DNA from: Klebsiella pneumoniae
GTDB lineage: Bacteria > Pseudomonadota > Gammaproteobacteria > Pseudomonadales > CAMAPQ01
Reading direction: 5' to 3'
Assembly: GCA_945860125.1 (NCBI GenBank)
Contig: CAMAPQ010000014.1
Coordinates: 1-44,572, forward strand
DNA length: 44,572 nt
A program made the translations under genes and the position numbers. Shown one piece after another: positions 9,219 to 25,333 of this stretch. The notes beneath the pieces were generated by a model. The model worked only from the letters and a program-made list of their open reading frames with translations. It made no database searches and was not told the DNA's origin. Position 1 is the stretch's first letter, and each line of letters starts with the position of its first letter.

Positions 9219-10659
9219 AGAAAATTCAGCTTGGATTATTGATGATGACCAATCGATTCGATGGGTGCTTGAAAAAGCTTTGCAGCGCGCCTTAATTAAA
9301 ACAGAAAGTTATGCTGAAGCTGAGAGCCCGCTAAGAAATTTACGCTTTAGGGAGCCTGAAGTTATTATCACCGATATACGCATGCCAGGAATGGACGGCC
9401 TTGCCTTTCTTGATAAGCTTAAGCAACGACACCCTCATATTCCCGTAATTATCATGACAGCACATTCAGATCTTGATAGCGCCGTTTCCTCCTATCAAGG
9501 GGGTGCTTTTGAATATTTGCCTAAACCTTTTGATATTGATGATGCCGTCAATCTTATTCACAGAGCAATTCAACGACATCAACAACAAAATACCAAGCAA
9601 TTTACACCATCACCTCAAGCGGGTGCACCTGAAATAATTGGCGAAGCGCCGTCAATGCAAGAGGTCTTTCGTGCGATTGGTAGACTTGCTCAATCAAACA
9701 TTACTGTCCTTATTAACGGACAGTCTGGCACAGGAAAAGAGCTGGTAGCCCGAGCGTTACATAAGCACAGCCCAAGAGCAACCAATGCTTTTATTGCCCT
9801 AAATATGGCAGCCATTCCCAAAGACTTAATTGAGTCAGAATTATTTGGCCATGAAAAAGGGGCTTTTACCGGCGCACATTTTTTCAGACAAGGTCGCTTT
9901 GAACAAGCACATCAAGGCACTTTATTTCTTGATGAAATTGGTGACATGCCTTTGGAAGCACAAACAAGATTACTGCGCGTTTTACAAGAAGGAGAATTTT
10001 ATCGCGTTGGCGGCCAAACACCGATTAAAGTTGATGTGCGATTTATTGCTGCCACACATCAAAACTTAGAAAAATTAGTTCAGCTAGGGACTTTTAGAGA
10101 AGATTTATTTCATCGTTTAAATGTTATTCGTATTCATTTACCTACACTGAACGAAAGACGGCAAGACATCATTAAACTTGCAAAATTTTTTCTGGTTAAA
10201 GCAGCACAAGAATTACGAACCACCGCTAAAACACTCAGTGCAGAGGCTGAAAAATTTTTAATGTATGCTGACTGGAAAGGTAACGTACGACAACTTGAAA
10301 ATACATGTCGCTGGCTTACCGTTATGGCCGCAGGTCATGAAATATTAGCAAGCGATATGCCGTCTGAATTACGCAACCAATCTTACTCAAACGACGGACA
10401 AAATTTCAGCTGGGATCAATCATTAAAACAATGGGCCATGAGTGCCTTAATGCAAAATCAAAGTAATATTTTGCATGCTGCTGTACCCATGTTTGAAAAA
10501 ACACTGATCGAAGTTGCCCTTAATTTCACAGGCGGAAAAAGAAGAGATGCCGCTGAACTTTTAGGATGGGGGCGCAACACACTCACCCGAAAAATGAAAG
10601 AACTCAATATGCATCCCGACTTTTTAGACTCAGAAGAAGAAACGTTGGATATGAATTAG
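9211..10659 (+). CDS. glnG: Nitrogen regulation response regulator NtrC (sigma54 activator)
   Basis: Receiver (DDDQSIRWVLEKAL, ITDIRMPGMDG), AAA+ sigma54 motif ESELFGHEKGAFTGA, C-terminal Fis-type HTH. Confidence 0.95.
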   Translation: MTKENSAWIIDDDQSIRWVLEKALQRALIKTESYAEAESPLRNLRFREPEVIITDIRMPGMDGLAFLDKLKQRHPHIPVIIMTAHSDLDSAVSSYQGGAFEYLPKPFDIDDAVNLIHRAIQRHQQQNTKQFTPSPQAGAPEIIGEAPSMQEVFRAIGRLAQSNITVLINGQSGTGKELVARALHKHSPRATNAFIALNMAAIPKDLIESELFGHEKGAFTGAHFFRQGRFEQAHQGTLFLDEIGDMPLEAQTRLLRVLQEGEFYRVGGQTPIKVDVRFIAATHQNLEKLVQLGTFREDLFHRLNVIRIHLPTLNERRQDIIKLAKFFLVKAAQELRTTAKTLSAEAEKFLMYADWKGNVRQLENTCRWLTVMAAGHEILASDMPSELRNQSYSNDGQNFSWDQSLKQWAMSALMQNQSNILHAAVPMFEKTLIEVALNFTGGKRRDAAELLGWGRNTLTRKMKELNMHPDFLDSEEETLDMN

Positions 10660-10672
10660 CTGTAGGCGTGCT

Positions 10673-13600
10673 TTAGCGACAAAACTGAAGTGTGGGCTGT
10701 GGATAAGCCAACACTTCAACCTCACCTAAAGACAAAACATCGCGCTCATCATTATTGCCTTGGCCATTACTACCAACCAATAGAGGATCGGATTGGCGAT
10801 TGATAATAATGTTGCGCCCCAATATCGGTGCATGAGTTAGCTCGACTAGATTCAAACTCAGCGTATCAGGCGATTGCAAAACATTATTGATATTAAGTAG
10901 TGGCGATTTAAACACTTGATTGTTGTCGGCATCCGTAATCGTCACTTGAATATCGCTCAAGCGTGCCTTACAGCAGTCCTGGCGATTATGTAAAACCACT
11001 GTATGTATTAAACGATTTTGATCCAAGGCCAAGCGCCAACTTGCTGAGCTTTGCCCTATAGCTGTGTGGGTAAAGTTATCGAAGCGACCATCAATGGCAA
11101 AACCAGCTGGAAATATATTATTGCCATAAGTAGATGATTGCGTTGCAGCGCCCAGTTGCGCAACATTTTGCTTTGCCGCACAGGCTTGCGTTGCTGGCAC
11201 TACAAGGCGAGACGCAAATACTTGAACCTCAGCCAATGACAATACATTGGCTTCACCGACATTACCCCCACCATTACTGCCCAACAACAGAGGATCAGAT
11301 GAGCGTACAATTTTTACTTGACGGCCAGTTACCGGTGCACCCGTTAATGCTATGAGGTCAATCACTAAACGATTCGGTGCTGCTTCGCGATTATGGCGAT
11401 TGAGAAAATGCGATTTGAACATTACCTGTTTGCCAGATGCATCGAGCACATACACGGTAATATCGCGTAATCTCCCACCACAGCAGCCAATGCGATTGTT
11501 TAATATGATTGAATGGATACTATAGCTTTGATCAAGCTCAAGCGACCAAGATGGGTTTGTTTGGCCTGTTTTAGTATGGGTGAAATTATTCAAGTCGCCA
11601 TCAATCGCTAAATTGGCAGTAAAACGTGTATCTTGATAATTCGATGATTGCGTAGCTTTGCCAAGCGGCGCCACATTTACAACTCGCGCAGTGATTGAAT
11701 CAGCAAACAGAGGATTCTTGCCTAAATCACGCTCATCTTGATCAAAAACGCCATCATTGTCGTGATCAATACCCATGCGCACCTCACTACCTTTGGGTAC
11801 GGCAGTATAAACCAAGGTATTACCCGCTTGGTTTTGTGTGCGAAGTTCATTAATGCTGACTATTTCTGTTTCGCGATCTGCCTGAAAGCGTTGACCACCA
11901 ATATAGGCATATCCACGTGTTTGGTTCTTGATCACGCCTTTAGCAATAATACCGATTGCGCCCGCATCTGCTAAATTAAGCAATTGCATCAGTTTTTCGT
12001 TCTGCGTGGCGTCGTTATTACCACTAAACATCACCTGAATACCAACAGCAGCATGCGTGTCTTTACTTTGGTTGCCTTCATTTAAACCTCGCGGCGTATA
12101 AGGAAAGCGCCCATTAAATGACAACATAAACGCCATCAAGTTATTGGAGCGTGATTCATTATGCGTAGAATCAAAACTGCCATCCTGCTGGAAACCAAAA
12201 CCAGAATTGCTCGCAGTGGCATCATCAAACCACAAACCAAAACGTTCATAAAAATTACGCCAAGTTGGCGGACGACGAATCAATTCGACACCAAATCCAC
12301 CACCGACACGCAATAGGTTTCCGCGACCACTATGGCCGTCGTGACAAGCGCGACAACTACCTTCAAACTGTTGTCGTCCGATATCAGCATTGCCAACACG
12401 ACTGACGCTGCCATGCGGGCCAGGAATTTGTACTTGCGTGGAATAATGATTATCAAGGTTACGATATGGATTTGGTGGAATATAAATTGAGTCTAAAAAG
12501 CTTTCAAAGGCCTTGGTATTAGCTAGCGTTGGCACAGCTAGCGCACCCTGTAGCGATTTAAACGCATCAGCAAAGTGGCCAAGATTGGCTTTATCGCCAG
12601 ACCAATGCATCGACGGATGACCAATAATATCTTGCAATGTCATCGTTAGAAGCGGGCCTTTCATCGGATGTTGTTGCACGTTGATAATGGGATTACCAAC
12701 GGTATCGCTGAATCCACGAATGCTGGCCATATTGCCAGCAGGATTGCCTAGATCCCAAGATAAACGATCAGTACGACCATCAATATGGCAGGAGGCGCAC
12801 GCAATATGCCCCAAGCCCGAACCGATTTGCGTGTCATATAAAAAAGCACGTCCCGCCTTAATAGCTTTTGGTGTTGGATCAAAAAAAGTTGCACGTTGTG
12901 TTTCACTGAATGACGTTAAGTTAATTTCCGAAATCTCAGCAGAGAATTTATTAAGTACAAACCCACGCGTGCCATTTGGGTGTAAAACAACCCCTGTAGG
13001 GCCTGTACCCAAGCGAATTTGATTTAATCGCTTGCCATTCTGATCAATGAGAATCAAGTTATTCGAGCCCATGCCGGTTATAAAAGCACGCTGACCATCT
13101 TTACTCCACGCAATACCACGCGGATCGCCAATCGACAGTTGCCGCGTTGCTTGGGATACGCTGCGTTGCTGATAATTAAGATGCGGGTTCAGATCAGTAA
13201 TTTTAGCCCGACCATCTGTAGATACTTGTGCCAAGTTAACACGCAAAAAAGTGCTTTGCAGGTTTGGTTCCCAGCGAATTTCATTAGTAGCATCGGTGCC
13301 AACAATTGCGATGCTGCCAGAAACTGGATTGACCGCTAACGCCATTAAGCTATTCATCAAGCGGCGCTGATAAGTTACGGTTAATACATTAGCGTCGATA
13401 ATCGCCAGGTCACGATCAGGCAAATCCCAACCAGCAACACGCCCACTACGACTGCCGCCTAATCCAGCTAGATCACCTGAAATAAACCGCGTCCAATCGC
13501 CTTGATTATCATCAAACCATTTACCGTCTTCGCTTTTACGCACAATCATGCTCACCGGCGGTGGCGCAATATTATTGGGATTGATGGCAGGTAGAAATTG

Positions 13601-14335
13601 TGTACCGCGATTTGGCGGTACATTAACGCCGCCGTAGGGGCCTTGTGGATGGCGCACTAAATCGACTTCAAAGCCATTTTGTTTTCCTCCAGTAACAAGC
13701 GTGGTGCCGTTTCCAGATTCAAAAATAGCAACATAAACTTTAGAACCATCAAGGCTAACCGCCAAAGCTCGAGGGTCTTCTCCATCAATCATGATGCGTT
13801 TTGGTGCAGCCAACATATTTTGTGGATCAAATACATTTAAACGATTAACTTGCGAAGCAGAAACAAATGCTCGCTGGGGTTTCCCTGCAAAAACAACATC
13901 TGCTGGTTCATCGTCAGTTGTTAAGGTTGCTATTACTTGTTGTGAATTGAGATCAATAACACTGATCGAGTCAGAAATATGATTTACCACCCACGCTTCG
14001 TTATTATTGCGAACGCGCACCGATACCGGATCTAAACCCACGGGAATCAATGCTCGTTGACGCAAAACACCACCCGCCGTATCAAACAGCAATAAGCTAT
14101 TATCAGCAGTATTCACCGCTAGAAGAGTATTGCCATCAGGCGTTATATCCAGCGGATGTACTTGCGGATTTTCCCAGTTAACAAAGTTTTCATTAGGGCG
14201 TTGCCAGGTGGTATCTGCCGATACCGTGCTCAATAAACTGGTGATGCCCTGAGTGGCAGCATAGCCGTGTGAATACACGCCAAGAAGAAAACAACTGATG
14301 ACAGATAAGATTAGGCGATTCAAAACTTGAGACAT
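10673..14335 (-). CDS. Secreted beta-propeller (YVTN-type) / di-haem c-type cytochrome protein with two tandem C-terminal F-type-lectin (fucolectin/discoidin-like) modules
   Basis: Signal peptide; repeated propeller-like blades (HPLDITPDGNTLLAVNTADNSLLLFD, IDLNSQQVIATLTTDDEPADVVF); haem motifs CASCH and CRACH; DHDNDGVFDQDERDLGKNP Ca-binding-like loop; two repeats ATQSSnY...AIDGxxxNFTHTxxGQ..SW.L.LDQ..xIH..xLxNRxxCCxxRLxDIxV. Confidence 0.8.
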   Translation of the reverse strand: MSQVLNRLILSVISCFLLGVYSHGYAATQGITSLLSTVSADTTWQRPNENFVNWENPQVHPLDITPDGNTLLAVNTADNSLLLFDTAGGVLRQRALIPVGLDPVSVRVRNNNEAWVVNHISDSISVIDLNSQQVIATLTTDDEPADVVFAGKPQRAFVSASQVNRLNVFDPQNMLAAPKRIMIDGEDPRALAVSLDGSKVYVAIFESGNGTTLVTGGKQNGFEVDLVRHPQGPYGGVNVPPNRGTQFLPAINPNNIAPPPVSMIVRKSEDGKWFDDNQGDWTRFISGDLAGLGGSRSGRVAGWDLPDRDLAIIDANVLTVTYQRRLMNSLMALAVNPVSGSIAIVGTDATNEIRWEPNLQSTFLRVNLAQVSTDGRAKITDLNPHLNYQQRSVSQATRQLSIGDPRGIAWSKDGQRAFITGMGSNNLILIDQNGKRLNQIRLGTGPTGVVLHPNGTRGFVLNKFSAEISEINLTSFSETQRATFFDPTPKAIKAGRAFLYDTQIGSGLGHIACASCHIDGRTDRLSWDLGNPAGNMASIRGFSDTVGNPIINVQQHPMKGPLLTMTLQDIIGHPSMHWSGDKANLGHFADAFKSLQGALAVPTLANTKAFESFLDSIYIPPNPYRNLDNHYSTQVQIPGPHGSVSRVGNADIGRQQFEGSCRACHDGHSGRGNLLRVGGGFGVELIRRPPTWRNFYERFGLWFDDATASNSGFGFQQDGSFDSTHNESRSNNLMAFMLSFNGRFPYTPRGLNEGNQSKDTHAAVGIQVMFSGNNDATQNEKLMQLLNLADAGAIGIIAKGVIKNQTRGYAYIGGQRFQADRETEIVSINELRTQNQAGNTLVYTAVPKGSEVRMGIDHDNDGVFDQDERDLGKNPLFADSITARVVNVAPLGKATQSSNYQDTRFTANLAIDGDLNNFTHTKTGQTNPSWSLELDQSYSIHSIILNNRIGCCGGRLRDITVYVLDASGKQVMFKSHFLNRHNREAAPNRLVIDLIALTGAPVTGRQVKIVRSSDPLLLGSNGGGNVGEANVLSLAEVQVFASRLVVPATQACAAKQNVAQLGAATQSSTYGNNIFPAGFAIDGRFDNFTHTAIGQSSASWRLALDQNRLIHTVVLHNRQDCCKARLSDIQVTITDADNNQVFKSPLLNINNVLQSPDTLSLNLVELTHAPILGRNIIINRQSDPLLVGSNGQGNNDERDVLSLGEVEVLAYPQPTLQFCR

Positions 14336-14528: not shown

Positions 14529-14575
14529 GCAAGAAGACACTTCTTGTGTTTAACTGATAAAGTCGGCAAGGATGC
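14529..14575 (+). repeat. Copy A of a 27-nt + 11-nt repeated segment (GCAAGAAGACACTTCTTGTGTTTAACT ... GGCAAGGATGC)
   Basis: Exact 27-nt match to 17903-17929, followed by shared GGCAAGGATGC after a short variable gap. Confidence 0.9.
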
Positions 14576-22584: not shown

Positions 22585-22852
22585 GTTCTATTTTAATAAA
22601 GCGTAGACCATAAAAAAAAGAGTCACCAACTGTCAAAATTACGTTGCTTAGCATCAATTCTGTTTTTCTAAAAAAAAGTTATAGCAAAACAATCTTAAAT
22701 TTAACCCACCCTTTCAGCCCACCTAAATAACATCACCTATAGTTATTTCTAGTAATGAAATATTACTTACGAATGAGCAAACGAAAATTTAACTTATAAA
22801 TAAAGTTAAATAACAGATTAAGTTAATAAAAAACCCGTTGTTGGAGGTTTTC

Positions 22853-25333
22853 ATGCGAATAAAAAGACAGTTGAAGATGAACCGCTTAGCCTTAATCATT
22901 TCTACGCTTGCACTGAGCGCTTGTAGCGGCGGTGGCGGCGATATTACGACAGCAGCTAACACCTCTTCAGCTACACCCACTTCAACGACAGACACAGTTG
23001 CAGGGCTTAAAACAGTTGAACAAGTTGATGTTGTTTCTGCACAAGAATCTACTGCTACTGGAAAATCAATTCGTCGTGCTTTTGGTCGCGCGTTTACTGA
23101 TGCAGGAACGGATTACGTTACAGATGAACAGAATTATCACGTATGGCATCCCGCCTTAGAACCTATTGAAAGTGTTAATGGTATTCTTTGCTTCATTGGC
23201 CAAGTGAAAGCCAGTGAGTTGGTTAATACAGGGCCTTATATTGCTTTAGTAGATGATAGCAAATGTGAAAAAGGTGAGGGAAACAGTAGCGCTCAGGGTA
23301 ACCAATCTTCTTCATCAGAAGACAGCCTACCTAATTATGTCCAGGTGGTTGCTGATGCAACACGCACCAGTAGTAGTGCACCGATGGAAGTAAAAATATG
23401 GATTCCTGAAATGGAAATGGGTGACGGCGGTGAAGGCGGTGGCGGCCAAAGTGCTTTAATCAAAGCAAAAGTAACGGTTAAAGAAGCACCTTCGAGCGGT
23501 AAACCCTTGGGCGATTTTAGAATGGCTTTTGATTTTTCAACAGAAGAACTTGGCTCAATGGGTGGTGGTGAACTTGCTAGCGCTGAAAATGGCACTGATA
23601 CCGGTTTTACTTTTCGCGAAGCAATGACCATGGGGCCTATGAGTGAGTCAAGCAGTGCAAGCTTACTTGCTAAACCAGATGGCAGTTCCGGCACTGCCCT
23701 CACGTCAAGCGCAAGATCAGGTGGCGGCGGGGGATCAGAGGGTGGCACCTTTGGCTTAGCCTTTAACGAGGCAACGGTGCTCGGTAGAAAAGGCGCGAAT
23801 CCAGGAGCGATTGCAAGCCAAGCAGATGGTCAAGGTGCGTGCTTAAGCCGCACTGAGTTTGATGAAGCCGTATGGCGTTACAACTTATATAACAAAGCAA
23901 CAGGCGCCAGAGTCACTTTAAACTCAGGCTTCCCTTTTACCTATGAAGATACAAATGACGAAAATGAGAAGAAATTTGGTTATGTTGGCTACTGGGGCGT
24001 GTGGACGGAAGGCAATGACGACCTTAACGGCAAAACAATTACCAAACAAACTTTTGGTGAGCAAGGTGCGGCCTCTAATGAAACATTTACCGTTAGCACA
24101 GCACCTGGCAAGTTGATTAAATACACTGCCGCCAAAGCAACATTAGCTGAAATGGACGGTGTTCGCTTTAACTACTGGGATGAAACAACTCGCAGCAATG
24201 ACAATAACCCCAATAACGACTACGATCAATGGCTGGTTGAACTACAAAGCGGCAAGTTTATGGTCATTGCCGGCATAAACTGGAGCCATGACGGCCCGCC
24301 TGAAGAAACAGCTGTTACGCCAAGGGATATTACCCCTACTGACGAGACAGATGTGATTCATTTATGGTCAGAACAATTAGGCGGTGGTGTTGTCTATCGC
24401 GGTGCTGATACAGGACTTGTTTACCATACTCAAGAAGTTATGAGCAGTAGCGCGACTGATATTGATCTTTATTGTTATGAAAGATGCACCAAAGGCGACT
24501 TAACCGCAGTTGATCTTGAAACTTGGGATGATCCTTTCACCAACCCTATGTCCATGGTTGGTAGCGTGACCCCTGTCCATTACAAACTTAAACAAGCAAC
24601 GATGACACTTGTTAAAATCAATGGAGATAGCTCAGAAACAGTGGTTGATTACCCAACAGATGCCACTGAATCAAGTGCTTATGAATGGGGTGTTAGAACG
24701 GGACATTTAGTTGATAGCACGACTAATACGGCAATTTCCTCTAATCCTTGGGATATCTATAACCCAACGATTGTCAGTGTGTTCTACGAATGGGAAACAG
24801 GTGATAAAGATTGGAACAAGCTCACATTGGTTAAAAATGGTGCAGATGCTGTTCAAAGCTTCGATAAACCGATTCATTTGAGCTACACCCATTCAACAGA
24901 TAATGATAGAAGCGGCGATGATTCTTATGACGGTCAACGGTTCCTCTTATCTTACCAAGGCGATGGCCAGCTACACGGCATTCCTTTCGAAGCCAAAGTT
25001 AAATCAAGCGATGGCAAAAAGAATGAGGATAAAGAGAGTGAAGATAGACATGTTCGTTGGTACCCCGTTTTTAACTTAAATGATGGGGCGATACTGTCAA
25101 ATAGCGGCACTGAATATGTTGTGAAAGCAATTGATATTGAACAGATGATGTCTGAATCCACTGACACCGCCTGTAATACAGAGCTAGCCGCACAGTTCGA
25201 CAGTATGGCTCATACTCTACCGACAGGCTTCAGCGCAACTTATGCTACGGATATTTCATCAGTGGGTGATTTACCAACGCTTGAAGGCGATGACGCGGTG
25301 CCTAAAGTAATCGGTGGTGAAGTGCAAGAATAA
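22853..25333 (+). CDS. Large Gly/Ser-rich predicted lipoprotein of unknown function
   Basis: Signal peptide ending in a lipobox (LIISTLALSACSGGGG); start 22853 or 22874. Confidence 0.75.
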   Translation: MRIKRQLKMNRLALIISTLALSACSGGGGDITTAANTSSATPTSTTDTVAGLKTVEQVDVVSAQESTATGKSIRRAFGRAFTDAGTDYVTDEQNYHVWHPALEPIESVNGILCFIGQVKASELVNTGPYIALVDDSKCEKGEGNSSAQGNQSSSSEDSLPNYVQVVADATRTSSSAPMEVKIWIPEMEMGDGGEGGGGQSALIKAKVTVKEAPSSGKPLGDFRMAFDFSTEELGSMGGGELASAENGTDTGFTFREAMTMGPMSESSSASLLAKPDGSSGTALTSSARSGGGGGSEGGTFGLAFNEATVLGRKGANPGAIASQADGQGACLSRTEFDEAVWRYNLYNKATGARVTLNSGFPFTYEDTNDENEKKFGYVGYWGVWTEGNDDLNGKTITKQTFGEQGAASNETFTVSTAPGKLIKYTAAKATLAEMDGVRFNYWDETTRSNDNNPNNDYDQWLVELQSGKFMVIAGINWSHDGPPEETAVTPRDITPTDETDVIHLWSEQLGGGVVYRGADTGLVYHTQEVMSSSATDIDLYCYERCTKGDLTAVDLETWDDPFTNPMSMVGSVTPVHYKLKQATMTLVKINGDSSETVVDYPTDATESSAYEWGVRTGHLVDSTTNTAISSNPWDIYNPTIVSVFYEWETGDKDWNKLTLVKNGADAVQSFDKPIHLSYTHSTDNDRSGDDSYDGQRFLLSYQGDGQLHGIPFEAKVKSSDGKKNEDKESEDRHVRWYPVFNLNDGAILSNSGTEYVVKAIDIEQMMSESTDTACNTELAAQFDSMAHTLPTGFSATYATDISSVGDLPTLEGDDAVPKVIGGEVQE

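Follow-up and report, generated by a model that had tools for sequence, protein, structure and literature searches.

A hallmark of hydrazine synthase (HZS) is a third covalent haem bond via an extra cysteine, Cys165 of the gamma subunit; fused beta-gamma-like proteins have been described outside anammox bacteria, and in these a tryptophan replaces the active-site histidine of HZS (PMC12758564). For surface di-haem proteins of the CCP type, SACCP of Methylococcus is a precedent (PMC3912023). The fucose motif of F-type lectins consists of a histidine and RxDx4(R/K); in the eel lectin, three basic residues contact fucose and the aspartate braces the first arginine (PMC5712786). Here we describe a gene in the window (the whole stretch of 44,572 nucleotides that was analysed) whose 1220-residue product combines a propeller/di-haem core with two F-type-lectin-like modules. 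We consider it slightly better than an even bet that this protein is an extracellular, peroxidase-type, c-type di-haem redox protein tethered to glycan by its tandem lectins. The features of the locus are the following.

10673..14335, minus strand: whole ORF, a single gene of 1220 aa (ORF listing of the window)
14258..14335, minus strand: predicted signal peptide MSQVLNRLILSVISCFLLGVYSHGYA, residues about 1-26 (read from the sequence)
12884..14188, minus strand: seven-bladed YVTN/Lactonase-type beta-propeller, residues about 50-484 (PF10282, TIGR02276, AlphaFold2, Foldseek)
11966..12883, minus strand: di-haem cytochrome c domain of the CCP/MauG superfamily, residues about 485-790 (profile against the PDB)
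12785..12799, minus strand: haem 1 motif CASCH, residues 513-517, followed by WDLG (527-530) and HWxGD (577-581), invariant (alignment of relatives)
12341..12355, minus strand: haem 2 motif CRACH, residues 661-665 (alignment of relatives)
11726..11767, minus strand: Ca-binding-like DxDxDG loop DHDNDGVFDQDERD, residues 857-870, at the end of the core (alignment)
11207..11686, minus strand: F-type-lectin-like module 1, residues 884-1043 (Pfam, PDB profile, AlphaFold2, Foldseek)
10676..11182, minus strand: F-type-lectin-like module 2, residues 1052-1220 (PDB profile, AlphaFold2, Foldseek)

The first-pass annotation had reported an ORF at 10673-14335; its length of 1220 residues stands and its strand is minus, a plus-strand reading having been rejected on account of 56 stops in the plus frame. 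All strings quoted there were found at their places in the translation, and the YVTN propeller, CASCH, CRACH and the DxDxDG loop were borne out by profiles, alignment and models.

AlphaFold2 predicted the propeller with a pLDDT mostly >90, and the best Foldseek match of this domain was HzsB (5c2v_B; E 2e-19, TMt 0.77); the model of the complete core, computed from an alignment with 88 relatives, reached a pLDDT of 91 and a pTM of 0.93. When the C-terminal half of the core was turned into a profile (44 relatives) and compared with the PDB, it matched CcpA-type 3o5c (6e-8), HzsC (5c2v_C; 8e-8) and the di-heme enzyme 6e1c (1.6e-5), and its alignment to CCP chains places the two CxxCH, at residues 513-517 and 661-665, at CCP positions. 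Both motifs are near-invariant across the 88 aligned relatives; in haem 2, Cys664 and His665 are kept in 88/88 and Cys661 in 87/88. Of 120 relatives, 118 have two CxxCH, 114 have WDLG and 114 have HWxGD; Trp527, Lys559, His577 and Trp578 are invariant or nearly so among the aligned relatives. The Ca-binding-like loop is likewise family-wide (Asp857 in 80 of 85 relatives).

The 1220-residue protein scores 20.7 bits for the Pfam family CCP_MauG (PF03150), below the cut-off of 25.6 bits, which counts against a tethered redox protein; the relative L115 scores 28.2 bits. Classical CCP membership was rejected because the curated cut-off is not reached and, judged by its sequence, the di-haem domain is a divergent branch of the CCP/MauG superfamily. 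The CCP/MauG context suggested by the first-pass annotation survives at the level of the superfamily, and the nearest solved architecture of the core is the HzsB+HzsC pair, not MauG alone. Identity with an HZS subunit was also considered. The NCBIfam equivalog scores for HZS lie far below the cut-offs (65.6 versus 560, and 43.9 versus 1250 bits), and the third haem-linking cysteine is absent, the mature core containing no Cys outside the two CxxCH. For these two reasons we rejected HZS subunit identity and regard the architecture as HZS-like. Trp578 appears to sit at the place of the HZS active-site histidine, which would make this a Trp-type rather than an HZS-type site.

The ORF stands alone, with DsbD and NtrB/NtrC-like genes on one side and DUF2157-type membrane proteins on the other; we take the former to be DsbD and NtrB/C from their translated sequences, as opposed to a profile search. 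The ntrC-like gene, which ends at 10659, is convergent with the ORF, and the DUF2157 gene, which starts at 14572, is divergent from it. Immediate neighbours of the gene are housekeeping genes, and no metabolic partner gene adjoins the ORF, again counting against a tethered redox protein. The same surroundings bear on a role as a MauG-like maturase, in which the core would oxidise a side chain on a partner protein at the surface, as in the pairs MauG/methylamine dehydrogenase and (as proposed) SACCP/MopE. Its place in the CCP/MauG superfamily and the surface di-haem proteins of Methylococcus (PMC3912023) speak for such a role, but no substrate gene adjoins the ORF among its housekeeping neighbours, and we consider it highly improbable. 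The GC content of the ORF (0.452) is above that of the window (0.393), but its GC3 lies inside the range of the neighbours, and horizontal transfer is not claimed from composition. A promoter and terminator scan returned signals at chance level and was uninformative. Elsewhere in the window, an 831-residue ORF with a TTG start (22838-25333, plus strand) is without a Pfam match at E 0.1.

Secretion, as put forward in the first-pass annotation, is supported by the N-terminal signal peptide. An atypical, lipobox-like VISC is found at residues 12-15; lipoprotein export through it was considered and judged less likely. The genome encodes CcmF and, indicating that a type II secretion system is present, GspD; DsbD is encoded within the window. 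By analogy with known biology, Sec would export the protein by way of its signal peptide, Ccm would attach the haems in the periplasm, and type II secretion would then probably carry the protein out of the cell.

The two tandem lectin-like modules had been proposed from their motifs, and both hold: each contains AIDG...NFTHT..GQ...SW.L.LDQ...NR..CC..RL, and the predicted structures are F5/8-type beta-sandwiches. Pfam detected two copies each of PF22633 (1.6e-21) and PF00754 (4.9e-19), of F5/F8-type C. In a single-sequence phmmer search of the PDB, F-type lectins came first among the lectin-like chains (3cqo, 5.5e-13; 1k12, 9.6e-8; 2j22); a profile built from the tail together with its relatives retrieved 3cqo (2.2e-58), 3le0 (5e-34), 2j1r (3e-32) and 1k12 (2e-25), and all known F-type lectin structures outranked CBM32 and the galactose-oxidase CBMs. 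AlphaFold2 modelled the tail as two beta-sandwiches (pLDDT 80), for which Foldseek ranked the tandem fish lectin MsaFBP32 first (3cqo; E 4e-22); single modules gave TMt values of 0.81-0.84 against fucose-binding modules. At the level of sequence and predicted structure, the Pfam, phmmer, profile and Foldseek results rule out a lectin match by chance.

As the first-pass annotation had recognized, the fucose motif is complete in module 2 (His1090, Arg1118, Asp1120 and Arg1125; RQDCCKAR, 1118-1125, with vicinal Cys 1121-1122), and in module 1 glycine (Gly950) replaces the aspartate (RIGCCGGR, 948-955). Module 1 keeps the basic triad of His920, Arg948 and Arg955 together with the vicinal Cys 951-952. 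In both modules 27 residues separate the upstream histidine from the first arginine (His920/Arg948 and His1090/Arg1118), in agreement with the annotation and one more than the 26 left by His52/Arg79 in the eel lectin AAA. Because the aspartate of the eel lectin braces the first arginine while three basic residues contact the sugar, module 1 should be regarded as changed, not as plainly inactive, and the contrast drawn between a functional and a diverged site goes too far for a module that lacks the aspartate only. The h2DGx cation motif is fitted by AIDGD of module 1, and module 2 has AIDGR, with arginine at x. Identity between the two modules is 53%, and between them and the module of L117, a lectin-tailed relative described below, it is 54-57%; Cys1052 and Cys1219, which flank module 2, may clamp it. 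From these motifs, fucose binding is plausible for module 2 only, and we infer that the protein may be targeted to fucose. F5/8 modules also include some that bind other ligands (galactose, lipid or protein), which counts against a glycan tether. In another genome (G529, contig C22; L034, L039, L044, L047 and L049), two long proteins with frames of 1250-1267 aa each contain three tandem F-type lectin modules behind a beta-helix-looking region.

Relatives were found by an alignment-based scan of genome contigs, a single-protein scan having given nothing. Of the 392 genomes from the same order, 106 contain a family match, as do 95 of the 369 from the class; many of these matches cover just the propeller. 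Relatives are encoded by 338 stretches of GTDB species genomes, and the best 80 of these 338 belong to Planctomycetota, Myxococcota, Verrucomicrobiota, Acidobacteriota, Bacteroidota, Actinomycetota and Proteobacteria. On one conserved core, the C-termini vary between dockerin-like EF pairs, Ig-like (He_PIG, Big_9), GlyGly-CTERM-like, TSP3-like, choice-of-anchor C and F-type lectin domains; the C-terminus of the family is an interchangeable slot. A member on plasmid NC_015708.1 of Pseudoalteromonas sp. SANK 73390 (H1, 94477-97065; aligned over 58% of the query at 28% identity) is consistent with mobility of the family.

The architecture is not unique: an F-type-lectin tail is found in three of about 120 relatives, identified with one lectin-tail profile that was seeded with these three proteins and with another that was not. 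L117 (Leucothrix MAG), the closest, has a family core 63% identical to ours and one F-type-lectin module, its N-terminus being cut off by the contig end; L088 (VITREO1 MAG) and L096 (Verrucomicrobiia MAG) likewise consist of the family core and one module each. Compared with the 1220-residue protein, all three have extra Ig-like, choice-anchor-like or PA14 domains. Among the 369 genomes of the class, a lectin tail on the propeller/di-haem core was found in the window's genome only. In the maximum-likelihood tree the 1220-residue protein pairs with L117 (99%), L088 lies among lectin-less Burkholderiales proteins and L096 stands beside a lectin-less Verrucomicrobiia protein; because well-supported branches separate the lectin-tailed proteins, the tail was gained or lost at least three times. 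The literature searched yielded no characterised protein with this lectin and di-haem fusion. The architecture is rare and recurrent, built from known domains within a large unstudied family.

These relatives also bear on what the tail binds. In the L117 module the vicinal cysteines and the aspartate are lost and RxD is eroded, and the L088 module is without the histidine; the sugar ligand, or binding itself, may accordingly have drifted, and with the motif core missing from the closest relative's single module, fucose is at most a plausible ligand. An alternative is that the tail is a mere anchor for retention at the surface or in a biofilm, its modules binding capsule or envelope of the producer itself, or a different, non-fucose surface ligand, with the core serving extracellular electron transfer or peroxide defence. 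The tail would then be equivalent to the GlyGly-CTERM, dockerin-like and Ig-like tails of relatives, and plain anchors do fill the slot in 40-47% identical gammaproteobacterial relatives; the erosion of the fucose motif in module 1 and L117 and the lack of a GH29 fucosidase in the host genome point the same way. Module 2, however, has the complete fucose triad, RxDx4R and the vicinal cysteines, and the motif of L096 is complete too, so that we hold retention by a mere anchor to be possible but rather doubtful.

The window's own genome encodes, on another contig (C4, 41091-44900; L080:7092-10901, minus strand), a secreted fusion of 1269 aa consisting of galactose oxidase (AA5-type), PKD, YVTN propeller and di-haem (two CxxCH) parts. 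Its galactose oxidase half matches 9g8h in the PDB (6.5e-99), and what we take to be the copper-site Cys, Tyr, Tyr-His and His of Fusarium galactose oxidase align in it. A 2177-residue homologue in a Granulosicoccaceae MAG (G579, contig C66; L081:3498-10028) adds four PPC domains, an H-type lectin and an F-type lectin whose fucose motif is complete (SVTHT..NRSDCCSNRL). Open frames reaching both the galactose oxidase and the propeller/di-haem halves were present in 3 of 369 class genomes; a 2510-residue open frame in G434 (L170; contig C1, about 938530-942987) matches both.

Such fusions raise the question of a glycan-modifying enzyme, in which the lectins would position the di-haem centre at a sugar polymer oxidised by that centre or by a partner oxidase, together with the galactose oxidase fusion. 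The presence of this fusion in the same genome and the two lectins of its Granulosicoccaceae homologue favour the idea, but the two genes lie on different contigs, the 1220-residue protein is without an oxidase domain, and we know of no CCP/MauG member that oxidises a sugar; we think it unlikely. Also in its favour, peroxidase systems reactivate copper radical oxidases, including fungal enzymes of the galactose oxidase class (PMC10928124), so that a di-haem half acting as built-in activator of the fused galactose oxidase is a testable idea. In its broadest form, to which we give little credence, F-type lectins would direct peroxidase-type propeller/di-haem units to fucosylated or galactosylated polymers, and there these units would oxidise sugars or keep galactose oxidase radical-active. 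If true, this would amount to a lectin-guided, self-activating carbohydrate oxidation machine.

Returning to the favoured glycan-tethered redox protein, the two lectin modules would hold the core on a host, algal, detrital or own capsular glycan, plausibly through fucose. The core would most likely act as a peroxidase/oxidase or an electron relay; electrons would move between the two haems, and peroxide would be reduced or a nearby target oxidised. The wider significance lies in a large, cross-phylum family of secreted propeller/di-haem proteins that is experimentally untouched and whose C-terminal slot is freely swapped. In a few lineages, apparently with more than one independent origin, an F-type lectin fills the slot, and the redox chemistry may there be aimed at glycans.

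In comparison with known systems, the F-type lectins (AAA, 1k12; MsaFBP32, 3cqo; lectinolysin, 3le0; S. pneumoniae, 2j1r/2j22) resemble the tail in fold, sequence, vicinal cysteines, triad and tandem arrangement. The tail differs from them in its fusion to a di-haem redox core, the missing aspartate of module 1, the deviating cation motif of module 2 and extra loops, modelled with low confidence, around residues 1020 and 1190. The di-haem CCPs, MauG, MbnH and BthA share with the core two CxxCH, the conserved Trp/His between them and a secreted or periplasmic location, whereas profile similarity to them is weak and the N-terminal propeller and C-terminal slot set the protein apart. HZS beta-gamma (HzsB + HzsC, 5c2v; HzsBC fusion) has the same order of a propeller followed by a CCP-like di-haem domain, and CASCH....WDLGD is common to HzsC and the core; relative to HZS, the 1220-residue protein adds the C-terminal lectins. 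HZS beta-gamma-like proteins occur in organisms far from anammox.
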